Of a stretch of 64,000 bases of DNA, positions 2,476 through 20,897 are shown piece by piece. How positions within the stretch are numbered: the stretch's first letter is position 1; each line of letters begins with the position of its first letter. Source of the stretch: Phlyctochytrium arcticum (lineage: Eukaryota > Chytridiomycota > Chytridiomycetes > Chytridiales > Chytridiaceae). Under the pieces are notes generated by a model that saw nothing but the letters and a program-made list of their open reading frames with translations, had not been told where the DNA came from and did no database searches. Location: positions 1,178,001 through 1,242,000 of the forward strand of contig JAHLKI010000004.1 of assembly GCA_025602905.1 (NCBI GenBank), written 5' to 3'. A program made the position numbers and the translations under genes.

Positions 2476-5400
2476 TTAGCGCTTTTTTTTCGTTGTCGTA
2501 GATGGGGTGTTGGCAGTCGGTCCATTTTTGCGCTTCGCCGATTGCGCGGGAGTACGGTTTGCAACTGGTGGTTTTGCTGTGTTCCACGCTTTTGGTGCGT
2601 CCGTCTCCTTGATGTGTTCTAGCGGCTCCCAAGTAGCCTCCTCTGGTCCGTAGCCTTCCCATTGTACTAGGTACATGCGCTTCCGGTGACGGACTTTCTC
2701 GTCAAGAATGCGTTCCACAAGATAGTATTGTTCACCATTCACCAATACAGGTTCCGGAGCGTCCTTCGAAGCTCTATGAGCGACGGAATTGGGTGACTTC
2801 CACGCCTTGAGGATACTGACGTGAAATGTAGGATGGATTATACGTAATGTATGCGGCATATCCAGCTTGTAAGTGTCAGGGTGAGGTCCGCGCTCTAGTA
2901 CCGAAAACGGTCCGAGCCAGTCCTGACGAAGCTTTTCTGGGAGCTTCCCAAGCGCCGGAATATGGATGCCTTTACGCTTAAGCAGGACTAAATCCCCTGG
3001 GCTAAACGTAAGGGTCCGACGTTTGACGTCGTGATTCCTGGCTTGTTTGTCTTGTTCATCGCGCAACGTTTGTTGCACGATCCGTTCAGTCTCGCGAAGT
3101 GTTTCGATGAATCGGTCAACTTGTTGCTTTGTTGGCACCGAGATCTCTTGGAGACCTTCACGCGTCGTGAATTCAGCGAAGACTGTCGGCAGGCAACCTT
3201 TGTCGATCATGAACGGGGCGTACCCGGTACTTGTTGGCGTCGAGTTGTGATGAAACTCCAATAGTGGAAGAATATCAACCCAGTTAGAGCCGTCCCGGTC
3301 GATTTACACCTTCAAGACTTTCTTGACAGACTGGATTTTGCGTTCGCATTTACCATCAGTCTATTGATATCGAGCTGTAGCAACCTCTTGCTTGATGCCG
3401 AGGCGGGCCGTCAAGGCTTGCCAGAATTCGGACAGAAAGCGGCTGTCACGATCGCTAACAATCACTTGTTGAGTTCCTTTATTTTTGAAGAAGGGCGCCG
3501 TAAAAAGGTATGCAAGCTCCTTGCTCGACATTTCCATGTTGCATGGAATGAGGTACACACGAGTGGACAAATAGTCTACAATAACCAGCACGGCATCGTA
3601 GTACTCGCCATTATGGCTATCCTTCCCTCCCCACAATTCCGTGCGGGGTAAGGAAGCTAGGTCCATTCCAATTGTGTGCCAGCGCCAATCAGGCACTGGT
3701 AAGGAGCGGAGTAATCCGACTCCTTGGGCAGGACCACGGAAGCGCTGACCAGTAGCACACGTTTGCACATATTGAGCAACGTCCTGTGCCTTAGTAGGCC
3801 AGAAGTACTTCTCCAGCAATCGTCCGAAAGTTGTATGCTTGCCCGTATGGCCACCCGTAAGGAGTGAGTCATGGTATTGCGCCAGCACCGCACCGCGGAG
3901 AGCATCAGGCACATAGAGGGGACCCTCATAGCGTAGCAACCGCAGCGTAGCGCCGTCGGTGTCCGCAGAAAGATTCTCTATGGAATAACGCCGTTCTGCC
4001 ACCGTCAGTGTCTCAGGTGCTTTCGACTTTTTTTCTAACGTCTTGAACGTCCGGAGTGCGAAGTCATCCGTGCGGACAAACTTGGCCCAATCCAGTGGAT
4101 TGCTAAGGATCTCCAGTTGGGCGATCACTTGGGCGATCTGCTTCTTCGTGCGTTTACGAGCACGGGCGGCGTTGGCCGTGACTACCACTGTACTGCCGGG
4201 AGCGGTGCGCTCGAGCGTTTGCAGTTTGGATGTGTGCACGGCGATAGCATTGAGCGTAACGCGTTGTGCACAATCCGCACAGCGAGGGGCGTACCACTGT
4301 ACTGCCGGGAGCGGTGCGCTCGAGCGTTTGCAGTTTGGATGTGTGCACGGCGATAGCATTGAGCGTAACGCGTTGTGCACAATCCGCACAGCGAGGGGCG
4401 TACCACTGTACTGCCGGGAGCGGTGCGCTCGAGCGTTTGCAGTTTGGATGTGTGCACGGCGATAGCATTGAGCGTAACGCGTTGTGCACAATCCGCACAG
4501 CGAGGGGCGTACCACTGTACTGCCGGGAGCGGTGCGCTCGAGCGTTTGCAGTTTGGATGTGTGCACGGCGATAGCATTGAGCGTAACGCGTTGTGCACAA
4601 TCCGCACAGCGAGAGGCGTAGTACGGGTTGCGACTAAGAACATCTGCCACGGTGTTCCATTCGCCAGGTAAATATTCGATGTCAAAGTCAAACTGTTGAA
4701 GGAATTCAACCCAATTCGCCTGACGCCGACTCAAACGCTGTTGCTCCAGAAGATAAATCAGGGATTTGTGGTCAGTGTAAGCGCGGAAGTGCCGTCCCCT
4801 AAGGAACTGCCGGTTGGATTTCAGGACTTTCACAAGAGCGAGTAGTTCCTGCTCATGGACCGGGTAACACGTCTCGGGGCCCTGCAACATTTTAGAAAAG
4901 TACAGGACAGGCCGGAGTCTTGGCAGGTTTTGGAAGCCTCCCACAGTGGTGGGTAGGGGGGACGGCATAACGTCGTCCTCATTAGCGGGTTGGGCAATCC
5001 AGCCGCCAACGGCGAAGCCTGAAGCATCTGAGAAGACATAGACTTCCTTGTTGGGATCGAATGGCGAAAGAACTGGGGCCGTTGAAATTTTTGCTCGCAG
5101 CGTTTTGAACGCCGTCATTTCCGCATCGCCCCACTGCCACGGTTTATTACCGGACTGGAGCTCCGATAGGGGATGCGCGATCTCAGCATACTTGTCGATG
5201 TAAGCCGACAAATAATTCGTCAAACCTAAGAAGGACTGAATGTCTTTGTAGTTCTTAGGAACCGCAAAGTTCTGCACGGCGGCGATCTTGCTTTTGGCAA
5301 TCCGAATGCCATTTTGGCCCATCATGTGGCCGCAGAATTCAACCTCAGAGGTCGCCCAAGCGCACTTGGACGGCTTGACGTGGAGTGCACTAGACTCTAA

Positions 5401-6942
5401 AGCCTTGAGCACTGTCTCGACATGTCGCTTGTGATCCTCAAGCGTGTCGGAGAAAACAAGGATGTCATCCATATACGTGACAACAAAATCATTGTACATG
5501 GACCCAAAAACCTTATTCATGATCCGCTGGAACGTGGCCGGTGCGTTGGTCAACCCAAAGGGCATTACAACGTACTCGAAGTGTCCAAAGCGGGTCTTGA
5601 ATGCGGTCTTTTGGATATCACCCTCCTTGATGCGGACGCAATGATAGGCATCCTTGATGTCCAGCTGCAAAAACCACTTCTTGCCGACCGTCCGGTGGCG
5701 CAGCTCGCCTAAATTCGGCAAAGGAGTTTGTTCGCGCTTCGCCTGCTTGTTGAGGCCTCGATAGTTGATGCAGCAGCGAAGAGAACCGTCCTTCTTTTTC
5801 GCGAATAGCACGGCGGCGCCCCATGGGCTCGAGGAGTCGCGAATCCACCCTTTGGCGAGGAGCAAGGTGATCTGTCACTGGAGCTCTTCGAGCTCATTCG
5901 GTCCCATTGCGCGGAGAGGCACGGACAGTGGCTTGGCCACACCCTCGATTTCAATCTGAAAATCGTCCTGGCCGCGGGAGGGAGGAAGTGTTTGCAGTTC
6001 TGTAAAGACTGTCTTTGCAAAAGGTTGCACGATCGGTAAGAGTGGGTTATGCGCCGGTATTGTCGCCAAGGGATCCACGTCTTCGGGTGACGCATCCAGC
6101 GGTTGTGAGCCAGATTCTTGGGTTCGGATACTTGACGCGGCCACTCGAACTGATGCCGGCGCTACGCGCACACGACCTCACCCGTCGATCCAGCGATCGA
6201 CATTGACTTGCACCGCAAACAGGGACGCGAACTCCTTCTTTCGGATCGCGCGAAGAAACCTCTCACCTCGAAAGAGGAACGGGGTGTTCTTCGCTGCGGC
6301 GAACATAAGTGACGACATAAGTTGCGGAGAGTCGGTCCTGCATTCAAACGATCGCAAGTGGGAAGCGTTGCAACTGGGCTTTTCTTCGCGTTTCCGCGAG
6401 ACAGGTCGTGCCTTACAGAAATGCCGCGTGCCTTCAATAATGAAGGAGAGACGGGGGCGCTTGTCGACTGTGTCGATCTGGAGGGAGTCAAGACCCAAGA
6501 TGAATGGAAGCCCCAGGATTGCGTCAACTCGAAGCGGAGCCACAATATAGGGAGAGTCCCCAAAGTTGGTCTTGTGGCCATTGTTTGAGTAGACATCCAG
6601 GTTGCCGGTCATCATTTGGTCCGACTTGAAGGTATCCCCGTCGTCGCCCCATTCTACTTCTATGGTAGACCTGGGTGCGTAAGTGGGGAAGCGATGCTTA
6701 CGAACCCACTTGTCATTGACCATCATCGTATCGCAGCCGGTGTCGATGAGCGTTCGCGCCATCTTGCCGTTCAAGCGTCCATGAATGACAAACGCGTGCG
6801 GTGAGATGAGAGGGTCCAAAGTCTTGTCCGGAAGTTGCGATCGCGGAACCTCCTGTTCCTCGGGAGGTTTGGTACCGGCGGAGACTACCCGAACAACGCC
6901 AGACGGTAGTACACCTCCGTTCTCCTCCCCCTCCTCGAACAT
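2476..6942 (-). pseudogene. Gypsy-1 pol: protease, RT, RNase H, integrase, chromodomain
   Basis: Read on the minus strand, the order is protease, RT, RNase H, integrase, chromodomain. Aspartic protease has [11 protein letters not shown] (about 6740). Reverse transcriptase has FLQLDIKDAYHC, MPFGLTNAPATFQ and the catalytic YMDDILVFS (about 5460). RNase H has VYVFSDASGFAVGGW. The integrase zinc finger is HHCC but its last CxxC reads CATGQ rather than CxxC, followed by the DDE core with VSDRDSRFL. A chromodomain (VERILDEKVRHRKRMYLVQW) lies near 2660. Lesions include TGA near 6178, a TGA near 5873 in the linker before RT, TAG at 3361-3363 (Gypsy-2 has CAG there) and TAA near 3304. The region between RNase H and integrase holds a 109-bp quadruplication. 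Gag and pol are in different frames. Dead copy; family call very strong. Confidence 0.9.
4184..4619. repeat. 109-bp tandem repeat, four copies, inside Gypsy-1 pol
   Basis: Units start at 4184, 4293, 4402 and 4511 (ACCACTGTACTGCCGGG), spaced exactly 109 bp and almost identical. Gypsy-2 has a single counterpart, so this is a local expansion. Because 109 is not a multiple of 3, each copy is read in a different frame; three extra copies add 327 bp, which restores the frame. No stop occurs in any of the frames used. Confidence 0.95.
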
Positions 6943-7087
6943 CGGCTCCGCGATTGTGACTCCGGGGAGACATTATCAACAATTGACACAGAATTTTGGG
7001 AAACTACTATAGGTTTTGTATTGATTACAAATAAACTTTTAGAAGTAACTATATCTGACAGGGATGAACAATCTGCGCCTATGGCCA

Positions 7088-7847
7088 TCATCCCCTGAAG
7101 ATTCCCTGGTTGCGGCGGCGCTGACCCTGTGAGCCTGGTGCAGGGCCTTTGCCCTTGCCATCCTTGGGATTGGGCTTGGGGAAGGATCGGGGACATTCAC
7201 GCGCCGAATAGTCCGGGCTACCACACGTATAACAGTGGGGGGTGCCGGGGTTGCCATCTGTCTTGGGGGGTGCTGGTGCCCTGCTGCTGCTGCCGCTGCC
7301 TTGTCCAGCGGAGCCCCTTGGGGGGTAAGGGGTTTGGCGGCCCTGGGCGGCGTTGGCCTTGACCTTGGGAGCCTTCCCACCTCCGGTACGGGAGGGTTTG
7401 TCCGGGGTATCCGAACTGGAGCCGCTCGGTTTCTTCCCGCTGACGTAGGAGATGCGACCGTCATTGTTGCGGGAGAGCTGGACCAAGAGATCGGATCCGA
7501 GGGCCTGGAGGCCGGCGAGGGAGAGGGGTCGGTCGACCCTGTTTTCAGGGGCCGTGACGATGGACGTGGCTAGTCTAGTCCAGAATTTCCCACCGCGGTA
7601 TAAACTGTCCCTAAAATACCCTGTCAATTCTGAGAGGGGTGGGGCCTCAACATTCAGGGCTAAGCCTGACGCCAGCTTGTTGATCTGTGCGGAATAATCG
7701 GAATAATTCCGGCACCTGATGGTCCGAAGCTTTGCAAGAATGCCCTCACTAGGGTCGCGTTCTTGAAAATGGCGTTTGAACTGGCTCTCAAAGCCGGCTC
7801 TGGTGGTGGGGCGGACACAGTCATCTAATGACGTGTACCAAGACTTG
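7088..7847 (-). pseudogene. Gypsy-1 gag, C-terminal part
   Basis: This is the 3' part of gag, beginning SWYTSLDDCVRPTTRAGFES at the transposon junction and ending at TGA 7088-7090. It covers the retrotransposon gag domain (FKRHFQERDPSEGILAKLR) and a nucleocapsid zinc knuckle. The knuckle reads CYTCGSPDYSAREC, with Tyr in place of the usual His, so zinc binding may be weakened. Downstream pol lies in the -1 frame relative to gag and overlaps it (about 7088-7196), as in Gypsy-2, but I see no clear slippery heptamer here. The N-terminal part is at 18884-19610 on the other side of the inserted transposon. Confidence 0.85.
7840..7847. repeat. Left target-site duplication of the DUF6589-type transposon
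   Basis: AAGACTTG, identical to 18884-18891. Deleting one copy and the insert rejoins Gypsy-1 gag in frame (…AAK/SWY…). Confidence 0.95.
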
Positions 7848-7878
7848 CTCAGGCAGGAACTGCTATAAAAGGGTAAAT
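7848..7878 (+). repeat. Left terminal inverted repeat of the DUF6589-type transposon
   Basis: 31 bp starting CTCAGGCAGGAACTGCTATA. Mismatches to the right TIR are at positions 9 and 21 only. Weaker similarity (GGTTxAAATTC) continues a further 30 bp inward. Positions 7879-8284 lie between the TIR and the gene start and presumably hold its promoter; no motif is recognisable there. Confidence 0.92.
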
Positions 7879-8284
7879 CAACATTGCCCAAAAAGGTTAA
7901 ATTCCTCGTCCAGACGTAGGGTTGTTGGAGTTTCGCGTCGCATTCACGGACGTTGACCCAAACTCCGCTCCTATACCTCCTCCTCAACCCATCGTGTCTG
8001 AACCTAACCAGCGGCGTAGGTTCGCGCCTGAGAGGTATGTGAATGGATTGCACTAACAAATTCTCTTCAAATTCGACGTCGTTTGGCCGTCCGGCACTGT
8101 TTCGCAGACTTCTTCAGGTTATTGTTAAGTTTTTTTTCGCAACCAAGACTTAACCCCCCCAGGGCACCGGACTGGTCCTTCCTCACTGTCAACTTCGAGG
8201 TATATATTCAAAGTTTGACTTGAGAAAATCTTAGCACTTTCTGACGCTTGCCTTGCCCTAGAATTGTACACAAAATTCCATCCA

Positions 8285-8512
8285 ATGTCCACCCCGTCGT
8301 TCCTGAAAAACCCCAAGAGTCCCGTCCAGGAACGCAAGAATGGTCGCTTTTCATTGTCTCAGTCACCTGTCAGAAAGACCAAGTCCGGATCGAGCTATCC
8401 CGCAGGCTGCATAGTCTGCGGTATCAAGTCCAGTACCCTCTTCCACCAACGGCACCGCGCGACAGTTCTTTATTTATTGGACAACGGCATCACTCTGCTC
8501 TTTGACGGCAAA
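8285..8512 (+). CDS. DUF6589-like transposon gene, 5' exon before the Gypsy-2 insertion
   Basis: ATG at 8285 opens 76 codons (MSTPSFLKNPKSPVQ…) that end exactly at the Gypsy-2 junction. The frame resumes at 15483 with PTNVKGFNAVFCNTC. Across the join, the pattern CIVC…CNTCLHRC, with intervening FHQRHR, suggests a small zinc-binding module at the N terminus, which would suit a DNA-binding region. The start is chosen because it is the first ATG of this frame after a stop-rich leader, and the region before it has no similar coding signal. The inserted element separates it from its remaining exons by 7 kb, so the gene is certainly inactivated in this copy. Confidence 0.75.
8508..8512. repeat. Left TSD of Gypsy-2
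   Basis: GCAAA, identical to 15478-15482 on the other side of Gypsy-2. Confidence 0.93.
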
Positions 8513-8739
8513 TGTAGCGTTTTCGGTTAAGAGTTGGTATGGACGGTAATGCACCTTCCCAGGGTGCGAGAGTCGGGGTAGTGTTATTAGCTTTAGCGCA
8601 GAGGAAGAGAAAAAGCGTCAAGAGTAAAAATGTACAGTGTAAGGGAATGATATACAGAAGAAAACAAGAAATATACACGTGACGATGCGCATTAGCGCAG
8701 TCGTGCGGTCAATGCTCATCAAACCACGAGCCCGCCGCA
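8513..8739 (-). repeat. 3' LTR of Gypsy-2
   Basis: On the plus strand it runs TGTAGCGTTTTCGG to CCCGCCGCA; 226 of 227 positions match 15251-15477. The polypurine tract (minus strand, …CTGAGGGGGG) abuts it at 8740-8754. Positions 8755-9431 are the untranslated tail of the element. Confidence 0.95.
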
Positions 8740-9431
8740 CCCCCCTCAGACTCGGTGCTGAAAAAGGTGGAAGAAGCGAGTCTCAGATCAGGGTTCGTGT
8801 GTCAGCAGGAAGAGTGGAATGTCAGATCACCAGCACAACCTCACCGGCCATCACTATACACCGAACGTCGCCAGACATGTATAGGTGTCAACGGTGCAAG
8901 GGAACAAACCGAACAACGCCTGACGTTTGAGCACTTGAATTGTGTTGGATCCCCTCGAAACCAGCCTTCTGATGTCCACAGGCATGAATGCTGCTGGATG
9001 CAGTTCCCGCAACTCTCGTTGCAAAGTGTGCAACCTTCCGTGTCCAAGTTAATCACGGGCATAGAGGTAAGAGTGTGTTTCCTTGCGTGGAGGGTAGTTA
9101 CGCGTAATAACGGAGATAAATGTTTCCCCGGTCTCTCATCACCTATGCATAGATGATGCATCAACTCAGCTCAGGCTGATCAGGCCTACCGGAGTTCTGA
9201 CGTGCGAGACGCGTCGTCAGCAAGGGGCAACCTTGGATGAGGGTCTCAAAGTGTTGAGATGGTGCGCGCGCGTAGGTAGTATCAAGATATGGGATGGGAG
9301 GTCCCGAAAAGTAATAAATGACGTAGAGAGTGTTTGCAAGAGGACACTCCTTGCTTTGATAGCAGTCAATGAGGTTGTCTCGTGTTGAGAAATAGTGATA
9401 CTTGAAAATATGAAACACATCTTCCTTGACG

Positions 9432-12400
9432 TCACTTGCGTTTGCGTCGTGAACGTTTCGATGGGGTATCGGCGGTAGACGTCGTGTCGGTTGCCGGGGC
9501 TTCTTTCTGGGCTTTCTTTCGTTTGGAACTCTTGGGGGCTGAGGGACGTGCTAGTTCCCATGCTTTCAGCGCGTCGGTTTGCTCAAGGTGTTCCCGCGGT
9601 TCCCAAGTTGAGTCCTCCGGCCCGAAGCCTTCCCATTGAACTAGGTATTTCCGCTTCTTGTGACGGATCTGCTCGTCCAGAATACGGTCGATGAGCCAAA
9701 GTTCCTCGCTGTTGACCAGCACAGGTTCCGGCGCGTCCTTCGTGGCACGATGGACAATAGAGCCAGGTTTGTGCCACGGCTTCAGAATGTCGACATGAAA
9801 TGTCGGATGTACCATACGCATTGGGTGAGGTAATTCCAGCGTGTAGGTATCAGGGTGCGGACGGGTTTCTTTGACCTTGAATGGACCGAGCCAATCTTGG
9901 CGAAGTTTCTCTGGAAGCTTGCCCAAAGCTGGAATGTGGATTCCCTTGCGTTTGAGTAAGACTGAATCGCCCTTCTTGAAGATGAGCGTCCGCCGACCCT
10001 TGTCATGGTTCCGCGCTTGCACATCTTGTGCATTGCGTAACCGTTGTTGTACCACCCGTTCGATCTCATGGAGAGTGTCCACGAACTTGACAACTTGCTG
10101 GTTTGTTGGCTGTGAAATCTCCTGCAGGCCTTCCCTGGTATGGTGTCCACCATTGACCTGTGGGAGGCGGCCCTTGTCGATCATGAACGGGGCATAGCCG
10201 GTATTCGATGGTGTTGAGTTGTGGTGAAACTCAATCAAGGGTAGAATGTCAACCGAGTTCTTGCCATCGCCGTCTATGTAGGCCTTCAGCACGTTCTTGA
10301 CAGACTTGATTTTGCGTTCGCACTTGCCGTCTGTCTGCTGATGTCGAGCGGTTGCCACCTCTAGCTTGATACCGAGAGCAGCGGTAAAGGATTGCCAAAA
10401 TTCGGCTAAGATCCGGCTATCGCGATCGCTGACAATGACCTTGGGAGCACCTTCGTTTTTAAAGAAGTGCTGGATGAAGAGGTACGCAAGCTCTTGACTC
10501 GAAATCTCCATGTTGCATGGGATGAGGTACACACGTCCTGACAGGTAGTCGACTATGACCAGGGCGGCATCGTAGTAGTCGCCGTTATGGCTAGGTTTCC
10601 CCCCCCCCACGATTCCGTCCTAGGTAGTGAGACTAGATCCATGCCGATGGTGTGCCAGCGCTTATCAGGCACTGGGAGCGAGCGTAATAGTCCGACACCT
10701 CGTGCGGGACTTCGGAAGCGTTGATAAGTTGCACATGTACGAACATAAGCTGCAACGTCGCGTTCCATAGTGGGCCAATGGTATTCTTGCAGTAGACGAC
10801 CGTAAGTCGAATGTGTACCAGTGTGGCCACCCGTAACCAACGTATCGTGATATCGCGCGAGCAATGCACTACGGAGGGCATCGGGTACGTACAGGCGATC
10901 TTCGTAACGGAGCAAGGTGAGGGTTTCCCCGTTGTTGCCTTTCTCCGGAAGGACTTCCACGGAATAACGCCGTTCAGGGACCGTCAAGGTATGCGGCGCC
11001 GATGCCTTGTCTTCAAGTGTCTTCTGCATTTGAAGAGCGAAGTCGTCTGTAAGCAACAATTCGGCCCAAACCTTCAGGTCAAGTGGGAGCTCGAGTTGTT
11101 GTGTTGCCTGTGCCAGTTGTTTCTTGGCACGTTTCTTGGCACGCGCAGCGTTTACCGAAACCACAAGGTTAGGCTTGTCGAGAGGCATGCTGGCGGAGTT
11201 CACGGCGATGGCGTTGATCGTAACACGCTGGGCGCAATCAGCACATCGCGGTGCGTAGTAGGGGTTTCTGCTCAGGACATCGGCTACCGTATTCCATTCA
11301 CCAGGGAGGTACTCAATGTCGAAGTCAAACTGTTGAAGGAACTCAACCCAATTCGCCTGTCGCCGACTCAAATGCTGCTGATCTTGTAAATAAATCAGCG
11401 ATTTGTGGTCAACGAACGCACGAAAGTTACGTCCGAGAAGGAACGGTCGGTTGGCCTTCAACATTTTGACGAGCGCGAGTAGTTCCTGTTCGTGAACTGG
11501 GTATCGTGTCTCCGCATCTTGCATTTTCCGAGAAAAGTACAAGACGGGTCGCAATTTCGGCAGGTTCTTGAAGCCATGTATCGTCGTTGGTAACGGGGAT
11601 GGCATGGGATCGTCTGCGTCAACTGGCTGAGCAAGCCATCCGCCGATGGCGAAGCCGGATGCGTCCGAAAACACATAGACTTCTTTTGCAGGATCGAACG
11701 GCGTCAAAACTGGAGCCGTTGAAATTTTCTCCTTCAAGGTGTTGAATGCTGAAATTTCTTCATCACCCCACTTCCACGGATTGTTGCCAGACTGGAGTTC
11801 CGAGAGAGGGTGAGCGATCCGTGCGTAATCATCGATGTATGATGATAGGTAGTTGGTCAAACCCAGGAAAGATTGAATGTCTTTGAAGTTCTTAGGAGTG
11901 GCGAAATTGTTCACGGCAGTAACTTTGCTTTCAGCAATTCGCACACCGGATGATCCCAGCATATGACCACAAAATTCAACTTCCTGTACGGCCCATGAGC
12001 ACTTGGATGGTTTGACGTATAGAGCGCTTGCTTCAAGGCTGGTCAAAACAGTTTCGACGTGCCGTTGATGTTCCTCAAGCGTATCTGAAAAGACGAGAAT
12101 GTCATCAAGGTACGAGATAACAAAGTCATCGTACATGCTTCCAAAAACCTTGTTCATGATACGTTGGAACGTTGCGGGTGCATTGGTCAAACCGAAGGGC
12201 ATGACAACGTACTCGAAATGTCCGAAACGCGTCTTGAAGGCAGTCTTTTGGATATCACCTTCGCAAACCCGAACGCAGTGATAGGCATCCTTGATGTCAA
12301 GAAGAGAGAAGTACTTTTTGCCGACAGTGCGATGTCACAATTCTCCGAGATGCGGCAAAGGAGTCCGGTCTTTTTTCGTTTGTTTATTCAACCCCCGATA

Positions 12401-13804
12401 GTCGATACAACAACGAAGAGTGCCGTCCTTCTTTGGAGCAAAGAGAACTGCTGCACCCCAAGGACTGGTCGAATGTCGGATCCAGCCTTTGGCGAGCAAT
12501 GCCGTGATTTGCTGCTTAAGTTCTTCCAGTTCACTCGGACCCATTGGACGCAAAGGTACCGAATGAGGTCGTTCTACGCCGTCGATTTCAATCTTGAAGT
12601 CGTCCTCGCCACGCGATGGCGGGAGGTTGCGTAGCTCCGTGAACACCATCTTCTTGAATTTTCGTAAAATCGACAGTAACGGGTTGTCTTGCGGGATTGA
12701 TGCCAGCGGATCTTCGTCCGGCACTTTCGGTCCCGAAGTCGCGGTGCTGGAACTTGCAGCCGCGGTAACTCGCGCGGAGGCTGGAGCAGCTCGCACACGC
12801 CCGTCACCGTCGATCCACTCGAGTACGTTAACTTGAACTGCATAGACTGAGGTAAACTCCTTTTTCCGCATCATGCGTAAGAACTTCTCGGCTTTGAGGT
12901 GAATCTTGAGACCTTGTACCGAAGCCAGCGGCGATTGAAGTCGTGGAGATTCGAGTCTGCAGTCGAACGTACGTAGGTGGGCTGCGTTGCAAGAGGGATT
13001 TTGTTCCCGTTTCCGTGAAACCGGTCTTGCTTCGCAAAGGTGTCGAACGCCGTCAAGCATGAAAGACATGCGGGGGCGTTGGTCAACCTCGTCGATCTGG
13101 AGTCCTTTGAGGGAGAGGATGAAAGGGAGGCCTACAATGGCATCTACGCGTAGGGGCGCAACAATGAACGGCAGTTCGCCAAATGAACATTTGGTGCGGT
13201 CGCAGTAGATATCCAAGGCTCCTAGCATCATTCGGTCCGCCTTGAAGGATTCTCCGTCGTCACCCCATTCTACCTCGATAGTAGAGGTGGGTCGATAGGT
13301 AGAAAATTTGTGATGCCGGACCCATTTGTCGTTGATCATGAGGGTATCGCACCCGGTATCAATGAGAATGCGGGCCATTTTGCCATTCAGTTTCGCATGA
13401 ACGACAAAGGCATTTGGCGCAATGGCCGGTTCAGGTCCACAAGCTGTACGACGCGGAGCGTAGCGATCTTCGCCAGGGGAACTCCCAATCGGTGCAGCCC
13501 GAACAGCGCCAGACGGCTGCATCGGAGTTGATAGTTCCTCGGGTTTTGATCGTACGTCTTCTTGTCGAATAGCTTGGGATTGCTGAACTTCATCGGAGAG
13601 AATGGACACAGTATTGATGGAGACCGTTGTATTTGAATTAGAGTTATGTATAAACAAAGTTGGGCTATCTAATTTTGCGGGTCCATCCTTCGGCATACGA
13701 CCTGCGTCGTTATTGCATGCCGAGACTAGTTTTTTGACGACGGTCGGTGCTTGGCACCGGCACAACGGCTGGCAGGGTGCCCTTCTTTGCCGCAGACGAG
13801 GCAC
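9432..13804 (-). pseudogene. Gypsy-2 pol: protease, RT, RNase H, integrase, chromodomain
   Basis: Domains run protease ([15 protein letters not shown], about 13350), RT (LDIKDAYHC, MPFGLTNAPATFQ, catalytic YLDDILVFS), RNase H (VYVFSDASGFAIGGW), and an HHCC integrase finger with CATYQRF at its last pair. They continue with the integrase core (VIVDYLSGRVYL, VSDRDSRIL, a Glu in KCERK) and a chromodomain near 9620-9700 (IDRILDEQIRHKKRKYLVQW), then a Lys-rich tail. Pol starts in the -1 frame relative to gag with a 79-base overlap. Two lesions are visible: TGA at 12335-12337, where Gypsy-1 encodes Arg, and a frame break in a run of ten G near 10601-10610. With LTRs this similar, the latter may be a consensus error. 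The chromodomain would tether integration to histone-marked chromatin, as known for chromoviruses. Confidence 0.92.
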
Positions 13805-15177
13805 CAGGGAGGCCGCTCATCTCGACGGTCATCGCGCCGGTCGTCGTCACGGCGGGAATCGCGGCGGTCGTCGCGCCGGTCATCGTACTGGTCATCGCGG
13901 CGGTCGTGGTTCCGAGAACCACGCCCCTGATTGCTATCAGGCTGCCGTCCTCCCTTACTGTAAGGGGTGGCTTTCTTGTTGTTGTTGCTGCTGCTGGCCG
14001 CGACACTGGCTTTGGGGGCTTTACCACCTCCGGGCTTGGACCCCTGATTGGAAGGCCCAGGGGCAGGAGTGGCGCCTTTGCCTTTCGCGGCGGGTGCGCC
14101 GGAAACAGGGACATAGTTCCCTAAGTTGTCGCATCCCCAGTTCCCGAGAATGGTCTGCACTGCCGTCTGGAGCAATTGAACGGATTGGTCGGTCAAATTG
14201 GCAAACGCAACCCGCATCACTTGCGTCCAGAAGCTCCCCCCACGCTGGAGCCCGTCCCGGAAAAATCGACGGATCTCATCCTCATCGACGGGACGGCGGC
14301 GGGTGGCAGTGGCCCGTAGTTCTCCGGTCAACCGGTTGAAGCCAGACAGAAAGGTGGCATAGTTGTCACAGGCAAGCTGATTCAACTTCGCCACAATGCC
14401 GTCGCGGGAGTTATGAGCCTCAAATCGCTCGCGCAACATCAACTCAAACTCGTCACGGGTCTTGGGCTCGTTGGCGAAGGTCAAGGACTTGAACCAAGCC
14501 TTGGCCGTGCCCTCAAGAAAGCCTTTGAGGTACTCAACACACTTGCGGCCGTATCGCTGGTCGGCATTATCGGTTGAGTTGTCCAGAAAGAGAAAGTGTC
14601 GGTCCAAAAAGTCCCGAATTCTCTTGTGGGCATCCTCGTCCGTGCCGTTGCCATTGAAAGTGGCCTCATCCGCCCTGCGCTGCATAGACTACAGCATGGA
14701 GTTTTGAAAGAAACTACCATCTAGGGGGACGCCCGCCTTCGAAATCAACCGCTTCAGTTGTTCAACCTCTTGCGTGAGGGTTTCGAGTCTTTCGACATCC
14801 GGGCCGGTGTTGGTCGCAACAAAGGGAGTTCCTCTGAGAACCTGGCCAGCAGGGTGAACGTTGCCCGAAAGGGACAACGTTGCACCGCCGGAAGGTTCTT
14901 GGGGGGTAGGCTTGTCGACCTCCATAGGTACGACACCGCCGTCCTCTCCCTTGTTGTTGCCCTCAGCGCCGCTATCTCTAGCGCTGGGACGGCCCTGCTC
15001 GCCGCTATCTCTAGCGAGAGGGTTTTCTTGCTCGGAGTCGGAGGCAGCGGAATGCTGTCCCTCCTCAACGTCCGAGCTCGCTCCATCCATAGGTTTGGAG
15101 GACAATTCGCTCCTGACGGGGCTGTCCTCGGAAACCTTGGTGGGCTTGCGGCTGCTCTTCTTGGATCCAGGACCCAT
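13726..15177 (-). pseudogene. Gypsy-2 gag with an in-frame amber stop
   Basis: ATG at 15175-15177 opens an acidic, Ser-rich N-terminal region ending in a short coiled-coil-like segment (VERLETLTQEVEQLKRL). A TAG at 14689-14691 interrupts the frame. The frame then continues with the retrotransposon gag domain (KAWFKSL, REREF-like segments) to TAG 13726-13728. The C-terminal part holds an Asp/Arg-rich low-complexity stretch and a normal CCHC knuckle ([14 protein letters not shown]). It would form the virus-like particle and bind the RNA. The amber codon could be a C-to-T mutation of CAG or a readthrough site; Gypsy-1 does not help decide because it is broken in this interval. Confidence 0.88.
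13729..13735 (-). promoter_or_regulatory. Slippery heptamer A AAA AAC for -1 gag-pol frameshifting
   Basis: The last gag codons are TCA AAA AAC TAG. The heptamer A AAA AAC lies in the correct zero-frame register one codon before the gag stop. A -1 slip there continues directly into pol (…KN/LVSAC). Downstream secondary structure was not evaluated. Confidence 0.75.
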
Positions 15178-15237
15178 GGTGAAGAAGTAAGAATAAGGTT
15201 AAGTTGAAAATAGAGTTGAGGCTAGTAGGTCGAAGAG

Positions 15238-15250
15238 GGTGGTGCTACCA
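15238..15250 (-). other. tRNA primer binding site of Gypsy-2
   Basis: On the minus strand TGGTAGCACCACC follows the 5' LTR with no gap. It is complementary to a tRNA 3' end GCTACCA, which fits the initiator Met tRNA. Confidence 0.75.
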
Positions 15251-15477
15251 TGTAGCGTTTTCGGTTAAGAGTTGGTATGGACGGTAATGCACCTTCCCAG
15301 GGTGCGAGAGTCGGGGTAGTGTTATTAGCTTTAGCGCAGAGGAAGAGAAAAAGCGTTAAGAGTAAAAATGTACAGTGTAAGGGAATGATATACAGAAGAA
15401 AACAAGAAATATACACGTGACGATGCGCATTAGCGCAGTCGTGCGGTCAATGCTCATCAAACCACGAGCCCGCCGCA
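15251..15477 (-). repeat. 5' LTR of Gypsy-2
   Basis: 227 bp, one substitution from the 3' LTR at 8513-8739. Confidence 0.95.
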
Positions 15478-15482
15478 GCAAA
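15478..15482. repeat. Right TSD of Gypsy-2
   Basis: GCAAA, matches 8508-8512. Confidence 0.93.
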
Positions 15483-18354
15483 CCCACCAACGTCAAAGGC
15501 TTCAACGCCGTCTTCTGCAATACCTGCTTACATCGTTGCAAGAAGCTTGTACCAGGAGACTGGTACAAAGCAGGATGGATGCCCAGGGGAGAAGAGGAAT
15601 GCAGCGAAGGTGATGAGACTGGTTCCTTGAGAATGGGTTATATCGCTGCTCCCAACGACGACCACCAAGACGTTCCCATCATTTGTTTGCTCGATGAAAT
15701 GGATACGCCGCATGATGCCCGTTCTGATGCCGATCTCAAGTCATTCAAGGACAGCATCATGCTATTGGAACAAAATCCATTCACATTGCCGAGTCCGTTT
15801 AGTCAAAACATGCAACAGTTTATGGATCATCTGGAAACAGTTTGTGATAAGATGGTCACCAAGAAAGCAATCTTTATTGGGGACGGTGAACATTGAAGAT
15901 CAACATTGACGCTGCGCCAGAAACGCGCTTTACTTTTCTCCACAATTTATGATGCAACAATCCACAACCATGGCGGCCGCATCAACTACATCAAAGACTG
16001 CTTCTAGGCTCCGTTGGCTGGCGCGTCCAACGTCTTGAAGAACTTCCTCTCTGCCTTCAACCTGTGCTATTCGCCAACTACCATGAGGAAAAAGATGACC
16101 GAAGCAGTGCTAGTCAATCTGGAACAGATTAAGCTGGATCTTGCGCGCGGTCAATTTGTACCGGTCTTGAAAATCGATGACTTCAACCGAGTTCGCATCC
16201 AGGGTACTCCTGGATCTGCCAATGCGGGGAAGTTCTCGAGTTGCACACCCAAGCGAATCTTGCTATAAAGCCTCACCCGCGCAAACCCGCAGAGGAAACC
16301 CACCGTTACTCGCTGTACCCAATAGTAACTGACACACGAGTACCCATTTACGCCCTCTATGTGAGTCTGGATTTCATGGGGGAGTGGATGCGTGCTGGGT
16401 TACTGTCTGCGTCTGATGTAAGGGATTATCGCATCCTGCGCTCGGCCGCCAACACTGAGCATGTTCCATTGAATGGTATAAGGCCAATGGACACGCCAAC
16501 TATCCACATTCCCGCTACTCCATATTTCGAGGTCTGGGAACGTCGCTTGGCGCTCAAAGGTGCATTTAAAACTCTATACAAGTTCAGCATGGCAACCGAT
16601 GGTGGGCAATTGAATGGCTTCCATGTCTTCCATGCTAGTTCCAACGCAATGAAAAGCGTTCAGGACATACGCCAATTGTTCTCCACGGTGTCAGAGTTTG
16701 CCGCCAACTACGATGGAGCCATGTTTCTGGTGGGCGACTTCTATGTTTGGCGGAACATGATGAAGTTGTTGTGGTCTGTGTACAAAGTGAAGCCTCCTCC
16801 CCGTCAACGCGCTCCAACCGCTTCTACTCTCGAAGAAAGCATGGCCGCTCTTGGTCGGGGACAGGTCGGGTTGGTGCCTACCGAGGCCCGTAGAAAGTAC
16901 ATCCCGTGGCCCAATATGATGCATGTCGCGTTGAATGCCCAGCTTGGTAAGTACAATTTCCTTGTCCTTTCAAAAGCAGCGAAACTAACGACGGTCCTAG
17001 CTTTGCTGCAATGGGCGTTTGGTGTCATCATGCCCCTCTGGAACGCCGCTTTCCCCGACGGCCCCATCAGCCTGGTCAACCTTCGTCCCATCCGCCGTGT
17101 CATGATCCTGACAATTATGCTGTGGGCCTGGAAAGCCATCCGACAAGAAGTGCTCCGTCAGTATCATTCACGCAAGAACAGCTGGACGGCGATGCAAACG
17201 GTGCTAGTCGAGTCTCTGATCCGATTGTTCGACGAAGACATCCCACTTGTTCTTGACGCCTGTGCCGCGATCGGGGATCGCGACGTGTCCCTGATGAAAG
17301 GAGTGCTGTTGAGACTTCTCTCCCTTTTCATCCGATTTGACAAGAAGAACTACGTGGTCATTATCCTGTACGTACATGCAGCTATCAAGTACTATGAGGA
17401 TATGAGTCCGGCCGATCGAGACGCCATGTACAGCTTCCTGCCAGTCGCAAGCTCCGAAGATTTGGAAGTGTTCCATTCCTTGTTGAGAGCGGTGCTGCGT
17501 CCCTGGGACGCGGAAAGCATCTGCGTACTGAAAGCCTTGTACATCTCGGCGTTACCGCCCGCAAATTCCTTAGTGATATCGCCGAGATGAAGCGCGCTGA
17601 AGCTGAGAGCAGCTGTCCGTGGTCGCAGAATATGGGGGTGATGCAGTTTGAGACGGCCACGCCGGGTCAGAAGACGACGTACTACGAGCAGAGGAGCGCG
17701 AACGTGGCGAAGGCCATGCGTGACATGTTCGACATTCTCATGAGTGTCTCTTCCAATTTGATCATTGAAGGGGCCATGGATGTCGAACATTCCGCGGCCA
17801 CACGAAAAAGCGCGCCCGTCTATCGGATCTTGCATGACCTGACTGAAGCTGCCGCACCACCAACGAAAAAATCAAAGACGCGGATTGCCGGCAAGGGCAA
17901 GTCCAATATTGCAAAGTTTGCCAGGCCTGCTCCCGGTCATCTGTGCACCGTTTCGGAGCGGTTGCTTCCATTTTCCCTATGGAAAAAACAGCATGTGCCA
18001 CTGAATATTCGGACCGACATTTCCACATTCAAGGCGCATAGTCCTGCAGACAAGCCTCCTCCCAAGCCCAGCGTAACTCTCGTGCCGATTGGTAACCTCC
18101 CGGAAGGGGCAGACAAGGGCAAATCTTCCAAAGAGAATGAAGCATTTCTCCATATGACGACAATCCTCAAATCTGTCTTGCCTTGTGGCTGTCCAGCTCT
18201 GGTACAGCAGCCTTGCCATCACTTTATTGACAAGGTTTCCAAAGAAAACATGAGCTGGTTCTTGAGCAACCTTACCATTCCAATTACCGTCAAGGATTTG
18301 CAGCCGGATGAAGATGATCCGGTCATTGTTTTCTCGGAGTTCGATCAAAGCTAA
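15483..18354 (+). pseudogene. DUF6589-like transposon gene, remaining exons (candidate transposase)
   Basis: Continues the frame that begins at 8285. Segments are 15483-15893, about 16008-16235 (LSAFNLCYSPTTMRKKM), 16241-17590 and 17587-18354. The core has FLVGDFYVWRNM, then WPNMMHVALN and later LVLDACAAIGDRD, followed by a helical stretch with NYVVIILYVHAAIKYY. That order resembles my memory of the fungal DUF6589 family; it is not proven. A good intron lies at 16947-17000 (GTAAGT…CTAAC…TAG, 54 bp, frame-neutral). The C-terminal part has NLS-like KKSKTR and a Cys/His cluster (CGCPALVQQPCHH). Two in-frame stops (15894, 16005) and two frame changes (about 16235 and 17545) mean either more introns, decay or consensus errors. 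Its position inside exact TIRs makes it the likely mobility protein. Confidence 0.6.
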
Positions 18355-18852
18355 TACATTTCCGCAGTCTCGTCACTTCCATATAGTTTCCACCCTTTAT
18401 ATCTTCTTTTCAGTAATAGCCCGTGGACTTCTTTGTACATAGTTTCTCTAGTTTATACCATTTTATCAAACGTGTCAGAATAAGGGATGGGCAAAAATAC
18501 AATGTTCCTTTCCACAAGGGTCCATGATGATCCATTCCATATTACAGCCGTATTTTTGCCCTCAAAATGAACAACTCTTCAGTCTTGTGAGAAAAATTTA
18601 CCGCTTGCCTTGCCGGCAGAGTGCATTTTCCTTTTTTTTGCGCAGACCCTGAGACCTCTTGTCACATATGCATGACATGAATTTCCCTCCGATTTTAAGT
18701 TGGCTTATTACAATAATATCTGGATAAAACTATTCCGGAGACGTGTGGGCAAGCTCAGGTCTGTAAGCGGACGTTTTTTTAATCGATTGTTCCGGGGGGG
18801 GGGGGGGGGAATGCGCAGACGCAAAGGAAGAATTTGGAACCCTAGCTTTTTA
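18355..18852. other. 3' region of the DUF6589-type transposon with a G16 run
   Basis: Noncoding stretch between the gene stop and the right TIR. It contains a run of sixteen G at 18794-18809 and no gene or RNA that I can recognise. Confidence 0.6.
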
Positions 18853-18883
18853 ATTTACCCTTATATAGCAGTTCTTGCCTGAG
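18853..18883 (-). repeat. Right terminal inverted repeat of the DUF6589-type transposon
   Basis: Inverted counterpart of 7848-7878, 29 of 31 positions matching. Confidence 0.92.
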
Positions 18884-18891
18884 AAGACTTG
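18884..18891. repeat. Right TSD of the DUF6589-type transposon
   Basis: AAGACTTG, identical to 7840-7847. Confidence 0.95.
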
Positions 18892-19690: not shown

Positions 19691-19988
19691 TGTAACGGGG
19701 TGGTAGTATAGGATGATGAGAGGACAATGGACAGTGAGATGCAACTTCCCAGGTTGCGTATTGTGGGTGGTTTGTTCAGATGGTTGCAGTAAGCTAGAGT
19801 TTACAACGGCATACCGCCGGCCTTTTATATGGAAGAAAAACTAAACTATATCACGCGTGTGGCGCGACACTCCCGGTTGCTACCGGACTCCGGTGGTAGA
19901 CACCGGATGGTACGAGTGTGAAAGATCACTGCGCAGTCTTGGACTGCGTTACTGCGCTACTGCGCCGCAAGGGCCCAGATCCGCTACA
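19691..19988 (-). repeat. 5' LTR of Gypsy-1 (LTR B)
   Basis: Matches 1506-1800 with substitutions and indels; ends TGTAACGG and CCGCTACA. TATA-like sequence on the minus strand at 19821-19832. Its right end joins MULE coding sequence directly. Confidence 0.85.
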
Positions 19989-20670
19989 TGGTGATTGACT
20001 GTGATACAGCTTTCGTTGGTGCTGTACAATCCAAATGGCCCGTAACCATCATAATCTTGTGCAGATGGCACCTCTGGCAAAATATCAAACAACACAGTCA
20101 AAAAAACTTTGTTGACACCGAGACAGGAAAGCATGATGCTGAGGCTTTCGCTGAATTCAAAAAGTAAGACTTTACATGAATTTCTTGCGGAATAGGCCAC
20201 TTACCTGCAATTGCCGCTTCAGGTCCTGGATGATAATTGAAAAGGCCCCGACTACAGAGGAATTCAATCTCTTATGGCAGTCGTTAGAGGACGAGGTTGA
20301 CAAAGCAACATACAACTACCTGAAAAAGAACAAAATCCCACTCAAGGAGCACTGGGCAAGTTGTTACATTGATTGATACCAACACCTGAACACCACTGTG
20401 ACCTCCAGAGTCGAAGGAAAGCACTGGGCTTCAGTGAAGTCCAACGGATCTGCCAATTCCACAATCTTGACCTTGTACCGAACCATTGAAGATAACTGTG
20501 CGCAGCAAATGGCCAATTACCAACTGGCTGTAAATGATAACGCTTCAACCAACCACAGATTTATGACTGCCGTCGATAATACTACGCCGAGAAACAAAGT
20601 CCAATTTAACCCTGGTGTCAAGGTCAAACCCTTTTACCAGGATGTCAACAAAGCGTTACCTCTCCACAAT
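19989..20670 (+). pseudogene. MULE-2 transposase, part before the copia-1 insertion
   Basis: Starts abruptly at the Gypsy-1 LTR with MVIDCDTAFVGAVQSKW, the second catalytic Asp block of a MULE, then CRWHLWQNI. An intron at 20164-20222 (GTAAGA…TTCAG) matches the position of one in MULE-3. The next exon reads FNLLWQSLEDEVDKATYNYL and VEGKHWASVKSNGSAN. A TGA at 20374-20376 interrupts it. The frame then continues to VNKALPLH at the copia junction, and 25183 onward carries on the same protein. It is a truncated, dead relative of MULE-3; no 5' part is present because the LTR cuts it. Confidence 0.82.
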
Positions 20671-20897
20671 TATTGGAAGATAGGATACTTAGACGTGTGA
20701 GCGTTACTGCTTAATCTTATTGCAGGGGGGGGGGGGGGGGGCGGAAGGCCTCCTTATATAAAGGTAGATGCGCAGAGGAATGTTTGCCTACGGAAACTAT
20801 CGCTAGATCTACATATAGTAACATCCCTAAGATCTCTTGTTTATACTCGGATCTCGGCCGGTCTGTTTGTTTGTTGTCGTATGACAATACTCCAACA
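20671..20897 (-). repeat. 3' LTR of Copia-1
   Basis: Runs TATTGGAAGATAGG to TACTCCAACA on the plus strand. It contains G17 at 20725-20741 and a TATA-like TATATAAGG on the minus strand just beside it. The polypurine tract GTTTGAGGGGGAG (minus strand) abuts it at 20898-20910. It differs from the 5' LTR by a handful of substitutions and by G-run length. Confidence 0.92.

Follow-up and report, generated by a model that had tools for sequence, protein, structure and literature searches.

Does the only gene of the DNA transposon at positions 7848-18883 of the window, the 64-kb stretch of Phlyctochytrium arcticum DNA analysed here, encode the element's own transposase? The initial annotation had likened this gene to DUF6589, a fungal protein family without assigned function, and had suggested that the family, or this branch of it, may encode a transposase. 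The element lies on the plus strand and spans 11,036 bp with a nested Gypsy-2 LTR retrotransposon (8513-15477), which is foreign to it, and about 4.07 kb without Gypsy-2. The LTRs of Gypsy-2 are 227 bp long (8513-8739 and 15251-15477, one mismatch), and its target duplication GCAAA was read from the sequence at 8508-8512 on the left and 15478-15482 on the right (retrotransposon and duplication both unstranded).

The ends of the transposon are 31-bp terminal inverted repeats (TIRs), CTCAGGCAGGAACTGCTATAAAAGGGTAAAT at 7848-7878 (plus strand) and CTCAGGCAAGAACTGCTATATAAGGGTAAAT at 18853-18883 (minus strand), which are identical at 29 of 31 positions, and both flanks carry a perfect 8-bp target site duplication (TSD), AAGACTTG (7840-7847 and 18884-18891, unstranded). 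These repeats, described in the initial annotation, were recovered as the only pair in the 64-kb window when it was scanned for TIRs matching at ≥13/16 positions with an exact 8-bp TSD and a spacing of 1.5-12 kb. The exact empty site claimed for this locus was also found, as the joined 200-bp flank aligns uninterrupted to other Gypsy-1 copies in the genome, covering 200/200 bases at C46:11117-11316 (96%) and C3:952134-952333 (95%), with further matches of 82-88% over 182-197 bases on C2, C28 and C6. Together with a second copy of the element, these features bear out the proposal that the 4.07-kb unit outside Gypsy-2 moved as a DNA transposon, and the TIRs, the fixed-length TSD and the empty sites are those of a class II DDE/D TIR transposon. 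The notion that 31-bp inverted repeats and 8-bp flanks met by chance in a repeat-rich region has a negligible probability and is already refuted by the second copy, the empty sites and the absence of such structures from 400 control loci, and nothing was found in its favour.

The second copy emerged from a search of the 31.5-Mb genome with the 31-bp TIR (≤3 mismatches), a check proposed at the outset. This search gave four occurrences, against none in the control, corresponding to both ends of the window element and both ends of one 4063-bp copy, which is 96-97% identical to the window element and has its own 8-bp TSD, AGATCCGC; short copies of this subfamily were not seen at this mismatch limit. 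At least about 58 loci in the genome are related to the gene by tblastn. A scan for TIRs with 8-bp TSDs was positive in 13 of 20 fetched loci and in 0 of 400 resampled loci, a count that leaves out eight shorter loci of 4.0-5.0 kb (L014-L017 and L019-L022), in which the scan found no match and six of which overlap places covered at greater length (L013, the window and L049-L052), L017 and L022 being the other two. All 13 positive loci enclose the gene. The elements are mostly 3.4-4.1 kb in size with TIRs of about 22-40 bp and termini of the form C(T/C/A)CAG(G/C)GC (CNCAGSGC), and three copies of 3449 bp differ from one another by 0-1 bases and share one 892-codon frame. The TSD is 8 bp long in 14 elements, whose target sites are unlike one another. 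The context of these 14 sites shows a weak preference for C at the second base upstream of the duplication and for G at the second base downstream of it (about 0.47 bit, both strands counted). No relative of the gene was found in a scan of the viral_contigs set, and shared exact-word searches, some of them over the 7996 best candidates, returned a single relative not named P. arcticum (P0012).

The TIRs of the family fall into several classes, each following the gene tree and each with its own gene clade inside TIR/8-bp-TSD elements, and 16 of the 18 terminus pairs enclose the gene (the accompanying figure of 0.09 ignores clustering of repeats). This co-inheritance of gene and termini largely refutes the possibility, anticipated in the initial annotation, that the TIRs depend for their movement on a transposase encoded elsewhere, with the DUF6589-like gene as a cellular passenger. 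The long open frame also makes up 78% of the compact 3449-bp elements, and the fold predicted for a relative is a transposase fold. A passenger role would fit the state of the window subfamily, both copies of which are broken and would therefore now need a transposase from elsewhere, but for the family we consider it very unlikely.

The window element is thus a defective copy in which the putative transposase gene is split by Gypsy-2. Its 5' part (8285-8512, plus strand, tblastn) starts at a Met equivalent to L013:1942, placed by comparison with the L013 frame, and includes the first CxxC of an N-terminal zinc-finger-like motif. The 3' part (15478-18354, plus strand, tblastn) ends with a TAA at 18352-18354 and is disrupted by in-frame stops and frame changes; a fragment of it is annotated as P0002 (DFS34DRAFT_366017). 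A 54-bp intron (GTAAGT..TAG, 16947-17000, plus strand), whose position is common to relatives, is missing from the P0002 protein. Four motifs lie on the plus strand of the 3' part: DDFN (16176-16187), the candidate region of the first catalytic Asp on strand 1; GDFYV (16733-16747), with the candidate second Asp at the end of strand 4; PNMMH (16910-16924), a DxxH motif with Asp replaced by Asn in this copy and kept as PDxMH in most relatives covering it; and SSEDLEVF (17450-17473), with a candidate catalytic Glu in a helix after an insertion.

A nuclease fold, which the initial annotation had suggested looking for, was predicted in a relative of the window gene. In the AlphaFold2 model of P0014 (pLDDT 72.5) the order of the strands is RNase H-like and the residues D, D, DxxH and E are present, and the first 48 of the 50 structure matches listed for it are transposases, RAG or SETMAR, led by the P element (6pe2) and Hermes (6dww) transposases. 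A model of P0001 with 11 rows was of poor quality and was left out of the structure search. A search of the viral structure library gave no match at E ≤ 0.001; its first entry, at 8.2e-3, was a protein of a Pandoravirus that carries the name hAT. Nothing credible came from searching the PDB with sequence profiles. The D, D, D/E residues of class II DDE/D transposases are conserved in the family, the candidate Glu lying within SSEDLE, and the first and second Asp are separated by 145-188 residues (P0014, P0004, P0003 and P0001), strand 2 being followed by a long segment before strand 3.

On this evidence, the window element is very probably a defective class II transposon with its own RNase H-like DDE/D transposase, belonging to a lineage that falls into none of the transposase families of Pfam and is nearest in fold to the P element and hAT (Hermes). 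The single gene would then encode a transposase of the cut-and-paste type, with a predicted core of an Asp on strand 1 (DDF), an Asp after strand 4 (GDFYV) and DxxH after strand 5 (PDxMH), followed by an all-helical insertion of roughly 160 residues and a Glu-bearing helix (SSEDLEVFHS). The N-terminal CxxC...CxxC module may bind zinc and recognise the TIRs, and a transposase multimer would pair two C(T/C/A)CAG(G/C)GC termini, cut both to excise the element and join the cut ends to the target with an 8-bp stagger, which would give the 8-bp TSD.

In agreement with the claimed absence of known transposase signatures, a Pfam scan of 28 members reported no transposase model (hAT, P, THAP, KDZ or other) at a limit of E ≤ 10, HMMER filters dropping most matches above about 0.1, and no transposase name appeared when single proteins were scanned against Pfam and NCBIfam. 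A Tc3 helix-turn-helix model was rejected (E 0.24, far under the cut-off, a 17-residue stretch only). The recurrent match was DUF6589 (PF20231), found at E ≤ 0.1 in 10 of 24 members, with a best E of 5e-5 at 22.6 bits against a curated cut-off of 27. A genome profile search with DUF6589 placed 0 of 14 matches over this 27-bit cut-off (best 23.7 bits). With scores under the cut-off, the family is DUF6589-like and not a formal Pfam member, so the resemblance noted initially stands as a recurrent weak match; judged by these profiles, the family appears weakly but significantly related to DUF6589, which is probably the wider family of this transposon lineage. In every row displaying a stretch, the match covers about profile positions 233-330 of 410, corresponding to the helical insertion, and the catalytic strands lie outside it. 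A transposase function is therefore supported for this branch by the gene-TIR link and the predicted fold, and for DUF6589 as a whole it stays an inference. We lean towards the view that all of DUF6589 either derives from or continues to be the transposase of a separate 8-bp-TSD DDE superfamily with a fold near P element and hAT, of which the P. arcticum elements would be the first complete TIR/TSD-bounded members.

No relevant paper was found on DUF6589, PF20231 or IPR046496, none on P. arcticum transposons, and nothing on this transposon family in the titles and abstracts listed. The proposal offers a mechanism-level hypothesis for DUF6589 and enlarges the DDE transposons by a candidate superfamily whose fold lies close to that of the P element and hAT. 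Many "hypothetical" proteins of this chytrid (P0001-P0031 except P0012) would become transposon genes and, if the proposal holds for the whole of DUF6589, its genes elsewhere among the fungi would be either transposases or their domesticated derivatives. The three 3449-bp copies in this chytrid genome, near-identical and with a long open frame, make direct testing of transposition feasible.

Among known systems, MULE/MuDR has a MULE or Mutator transposase domain, which was not reported in the 28 members. ISCth4 (6xgx), a member of the IS256 family, is a bacterial insertion sequence, and no corresponding Pfam match was reported here. CMC/Transib (CMCT) elements are defined by 2-5 bp TSDs (PMC12730594), in contrast to 8 bp in this family. 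Dada resembles it in a DDE transposase with DxxH after the second D, a CCCC zinc finger at the N-terminus and a Cys/His motif at the C-terminus, but has 6-7 bp TSDs, targets small RNA genes and, in its U6 and U1 families, is devoid of TIRs, according to Kojima and Jurka (2013, PMC3706591), whereas the present family has 8-bp TSDs, TIRs and 14 dissimilar target sites. KDZ (Kyakuja-Dileera-Zisupton) elements are likewise fungal with reported 8-bp TSDs (PMC12730594; 4-8 bp in PMC12810828), but the KDZ transposase domain was not reported in the 28 members, and the Cryptococcus KDZ1-3 elements are about 9-11 kb with TIRs of 139-241 bp. The best-surviving alternative, possible but doubtful, is that the element is a highly diverged P element or hAT member, with the same fold, 8-bp TSD and D/D/DxxH/E plan and a sequence beyond Pfam detection. 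The hAT superfamily shares its usual 8-bp TSD and the catalytic plan D, D, C/DxxH, E (PMC3706591) with this family. However, the C-terminal dimerisation or BED domain of hAT (Hermes) was not reported in the 28 members. The termini of hAT elements have a YAG-type start, as opposed to CNCAGSGC, and so long a segment separating strand 2 from strand 3 is not known from P or hAT. The P superfamily has the same 8-bp TSD, but its P transposase, THAP and GTP-binding sequence domains were not reported in the 28 members, and the Drosophila P transposase has a THAP-type N-terminus and a GTP-binding domain, with a CxxC..CxxC N-terminus here instead, as well as termini that differ from CNCAGSGC. The rank of superfamily is a matter of convention; the P. 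arcticum elements are best read as a DDE transposon lineage of that rank.

The window is part of C4, one of the 91 contigs that make up a 31.48-Mb genome. Its DNA transposon at positions 7848-18883 is bounded by 31-bp TIRs (29 of 31 bases identical) and an exact 8-bp TSD, AAGACTTG. A scan of the whole window for TIRs matching at 13 or more of 16 positions and flanked by an exact 8-bp TSD returned this single pair. When the flanks of the transposon are joined, the resulting 200 bp align in full with two other Gypsy-1 copies (96% and 95%) and over 182-197 bases with three further copies (82-88%); these uninterrupted Gypsy-1 matches are natural empty sites of the element. The TIRs, perfect TSD and empty site from which the initial annotation concluded that a DNA transposon had moved are borne out by the sequence, the window scan and five Gypsy-1 copies.

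Nested inside the unit is Gypsy-2, with 227-bp LTRs and a GCAAA duplication; the first ~89 bases of its LTR have matches at many genome sites. With a single mismatch between its two LTRs and with these matches recurring, the retrotransposon has probably moved recently as well. To the right of the element, past the Gypsy-1 flank, a degenerate MULE-type transposase fragment occupies window positions 19922-20700, of which 19922-20164 matches PF10551 (E 4.3e-4, under the model's cut-off) and two further pieces have no match.

Allowing up to 3 mismatches, the genome contains four occurrences of the 31-bp TIR: two bound the window element and two bound one further copy (C2:1228003-1232065), which is 4063 bp long, 96-97% identical to the window element and carries its own 8-bp TSD, AGATCCGC, on both flanks. 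Judged from their sequences, both copies of this subfamily are broken. Gypsy-2 divides the window copy, which also carries in-frame stops as well as frame changes and has PNMMH in place of the PDxMH found in most relatives; in the C2 copy the frame changes once and GDFYV is missing. The annotated protein P0002, which like P0001 is named as coming from the chytrid Phlyctochytrium arcticum, corresponds to part of the window gene. When the genome was searched with the first open frame of the C2 copy (659 residues), 67 of 278 candidates were scored and at least 106 exon matches emerged; merging by hand reduced them to about 58 loci. The family protein P0013 gave at least 57 matches (48 of 277 candidates scored) at partly shared loci.

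Twenty of the approximately 58 loci were scanned for element ends, 19 picked by gene match before any end search and the C2 copy by its TIR. TIRs with an exact 8-bp TSD were found at 13 of them (12 of 19 leaving out the C2 copy), compared with none in 400 controls made by first-order resampling in 20 rounds of 20, and all 13 enclose the gene. Adding the window element brings the total to 14, each 3.4-4.1 kb in length, or 11.0 kb where Gypsy-2 is included, and no two share a TSD. Among the remaining loci, L044 (element at 3704-7277) and L046 (3949-7522) have both termini and no matching 8-bp flanks, perhaps because copies recombined or the assembly is faulty; one of the two adjoins a run of G. 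A single terminus was found at L038 and L048, one candidate at most at L047, and termini were not recognised at L035 (at a contig end) or L037. At L048 (positions 4992-7688; relative at C6:1021500-1030500), the C-terminal transposase half continues stop-free into a DUF5906 region (PF19263, E 2.3e-18), which we take to be primase-helicase-like. This locus is a nested or chimeric mobile element.

By eye, the 14 elements share the terminus consensus C(T/C/A)CAG(G/C)GC; a further block, TAAATNA, frequently lies ~25 bases inward. Clade and terminus class agree in an 18-row tree of the C-terminal protein core, with support of 100/98 for the CTCAGGCA class (window and C2 copy), 100/100 for CTCAGGCG, 99/97 for CACAGCGC, 99/100 for CCCAGGGC (in one of its two rows the left end alone was read) and 100/100 for CTCAGCGC; CCCAGCGC is a single row. 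P0012 (474 aa, on a contig of 3247 bases) is the one relative recovered that does not bear the name P. arcticum. It groups with CTCAGCGC (support 100/99), and its branch is long when the tree is rooted at the midpoint. The terminus CTCAGCGCAMCCCGGG had at least 61 genome hits with at most 1 mismatch and its reversed pattern none. Thirty-eight of the 61 face one of 48 gene loci from no more than 1 kb outside, about 0.09 being expected at random places if clustering of repeats is ignored. Inward-facing pairs enclose a gene match in 16 of 18 cases, and 16 of the 48 loci are flanked by such a pair. The two pairs without a scored match (C67:5035-10694 and C3:884352-887651) may represent copies that have diverged or are non-autonomous, or may hold genes unscored in the limited search.

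Three copies of 3449 bp differ from each other by 0-1 bases and have the TSDs AGCATCAG, ACCAAGTG and ACACATGG. Each contains a single open frame that runs 892 codons between stops, or 842 when counted from the first start codon, and takes up 78% of the element; in the alignment to P0013 one TAG near the N-terminus, perhaps in an intron, was read through. On this evidence, they look like a one-gene element that moved recently, and a passenger role for the gene becomes very unlikely.

Among 28 family members, Pfam scans reported no transposase model (limit E ≤ 10, with HMMER filters dropping most matches above ~0.1), nor was an NCBIfam one found in the five members scanned. The recurrent Pfam match is DUF6589 (P0003, E 5e-5, 22.6 bits against a cut-off of 27; P0004, E 0.0011; E ≤ 0.1 in 10 of 24 members), and none of the 14 genome matches of its profile at E ≤ 0.01 exceeds the cut-off. 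The DUF6589 resemblance proposed by the initial annotation is measurable but remote, with every score under the cut-off; the match spans profile positions ~233-330 of 410, which fall in the helical insertion, outside the catalytic strands. Each cysteine of an N-terminal CxxC...CxxC is present in 9 of 10 sequences, with P0004 and P0018/P0019 deviating. Further conserved motifs are DDF(N/H), GD(F/Y)Y(V/I), PDxMH and SSEDLEVFHS, and several family proteins are fragments without one of them. Variants include DNFN (P0005), PN (P0002, P0023), PDLMP (P0021), PDSLH and LELF (P0012), SSEVMEVF (P0018, P0019), SSEDQEVF (P0022, P0026) and SSQDLEVF (P0029). In P0001, D550-x-x-H553 lies downstream of D492; Kojima and Jurka (PMC3706591) describe DxxH or CxxH after the second D in hAT, Kolobok, P, MuDR, IS256 and Dada transposases.

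The suggestion that the gene encodes a transposase holds as far as can be computed, from gene-end co-inheritance, motifs and the fold predicted for a relative. The element is a DDE DNA transposon. Its enzyme would pair both ends, cut them and join them across an 8-bp stagger, as P and hAT enzymes do; the N-terminal cysteines would bind zinc and the element ends, and the catalytic Glu would be one of the two in SSEDLE. TSD length, TIRs or a missing domain speak against Dada, KDZ and CMCT. In the papers searched, no described superfamily matched the lineage, although Repbase or Dfam may hold such a superfamily under another name. Although P element and hAT enzymes have a plan and TSD length like those found here, we placed the lineage in neither, since at the sequence level the family had no reported domain of either and the fold comparison separates the two by just 1.4 Z.
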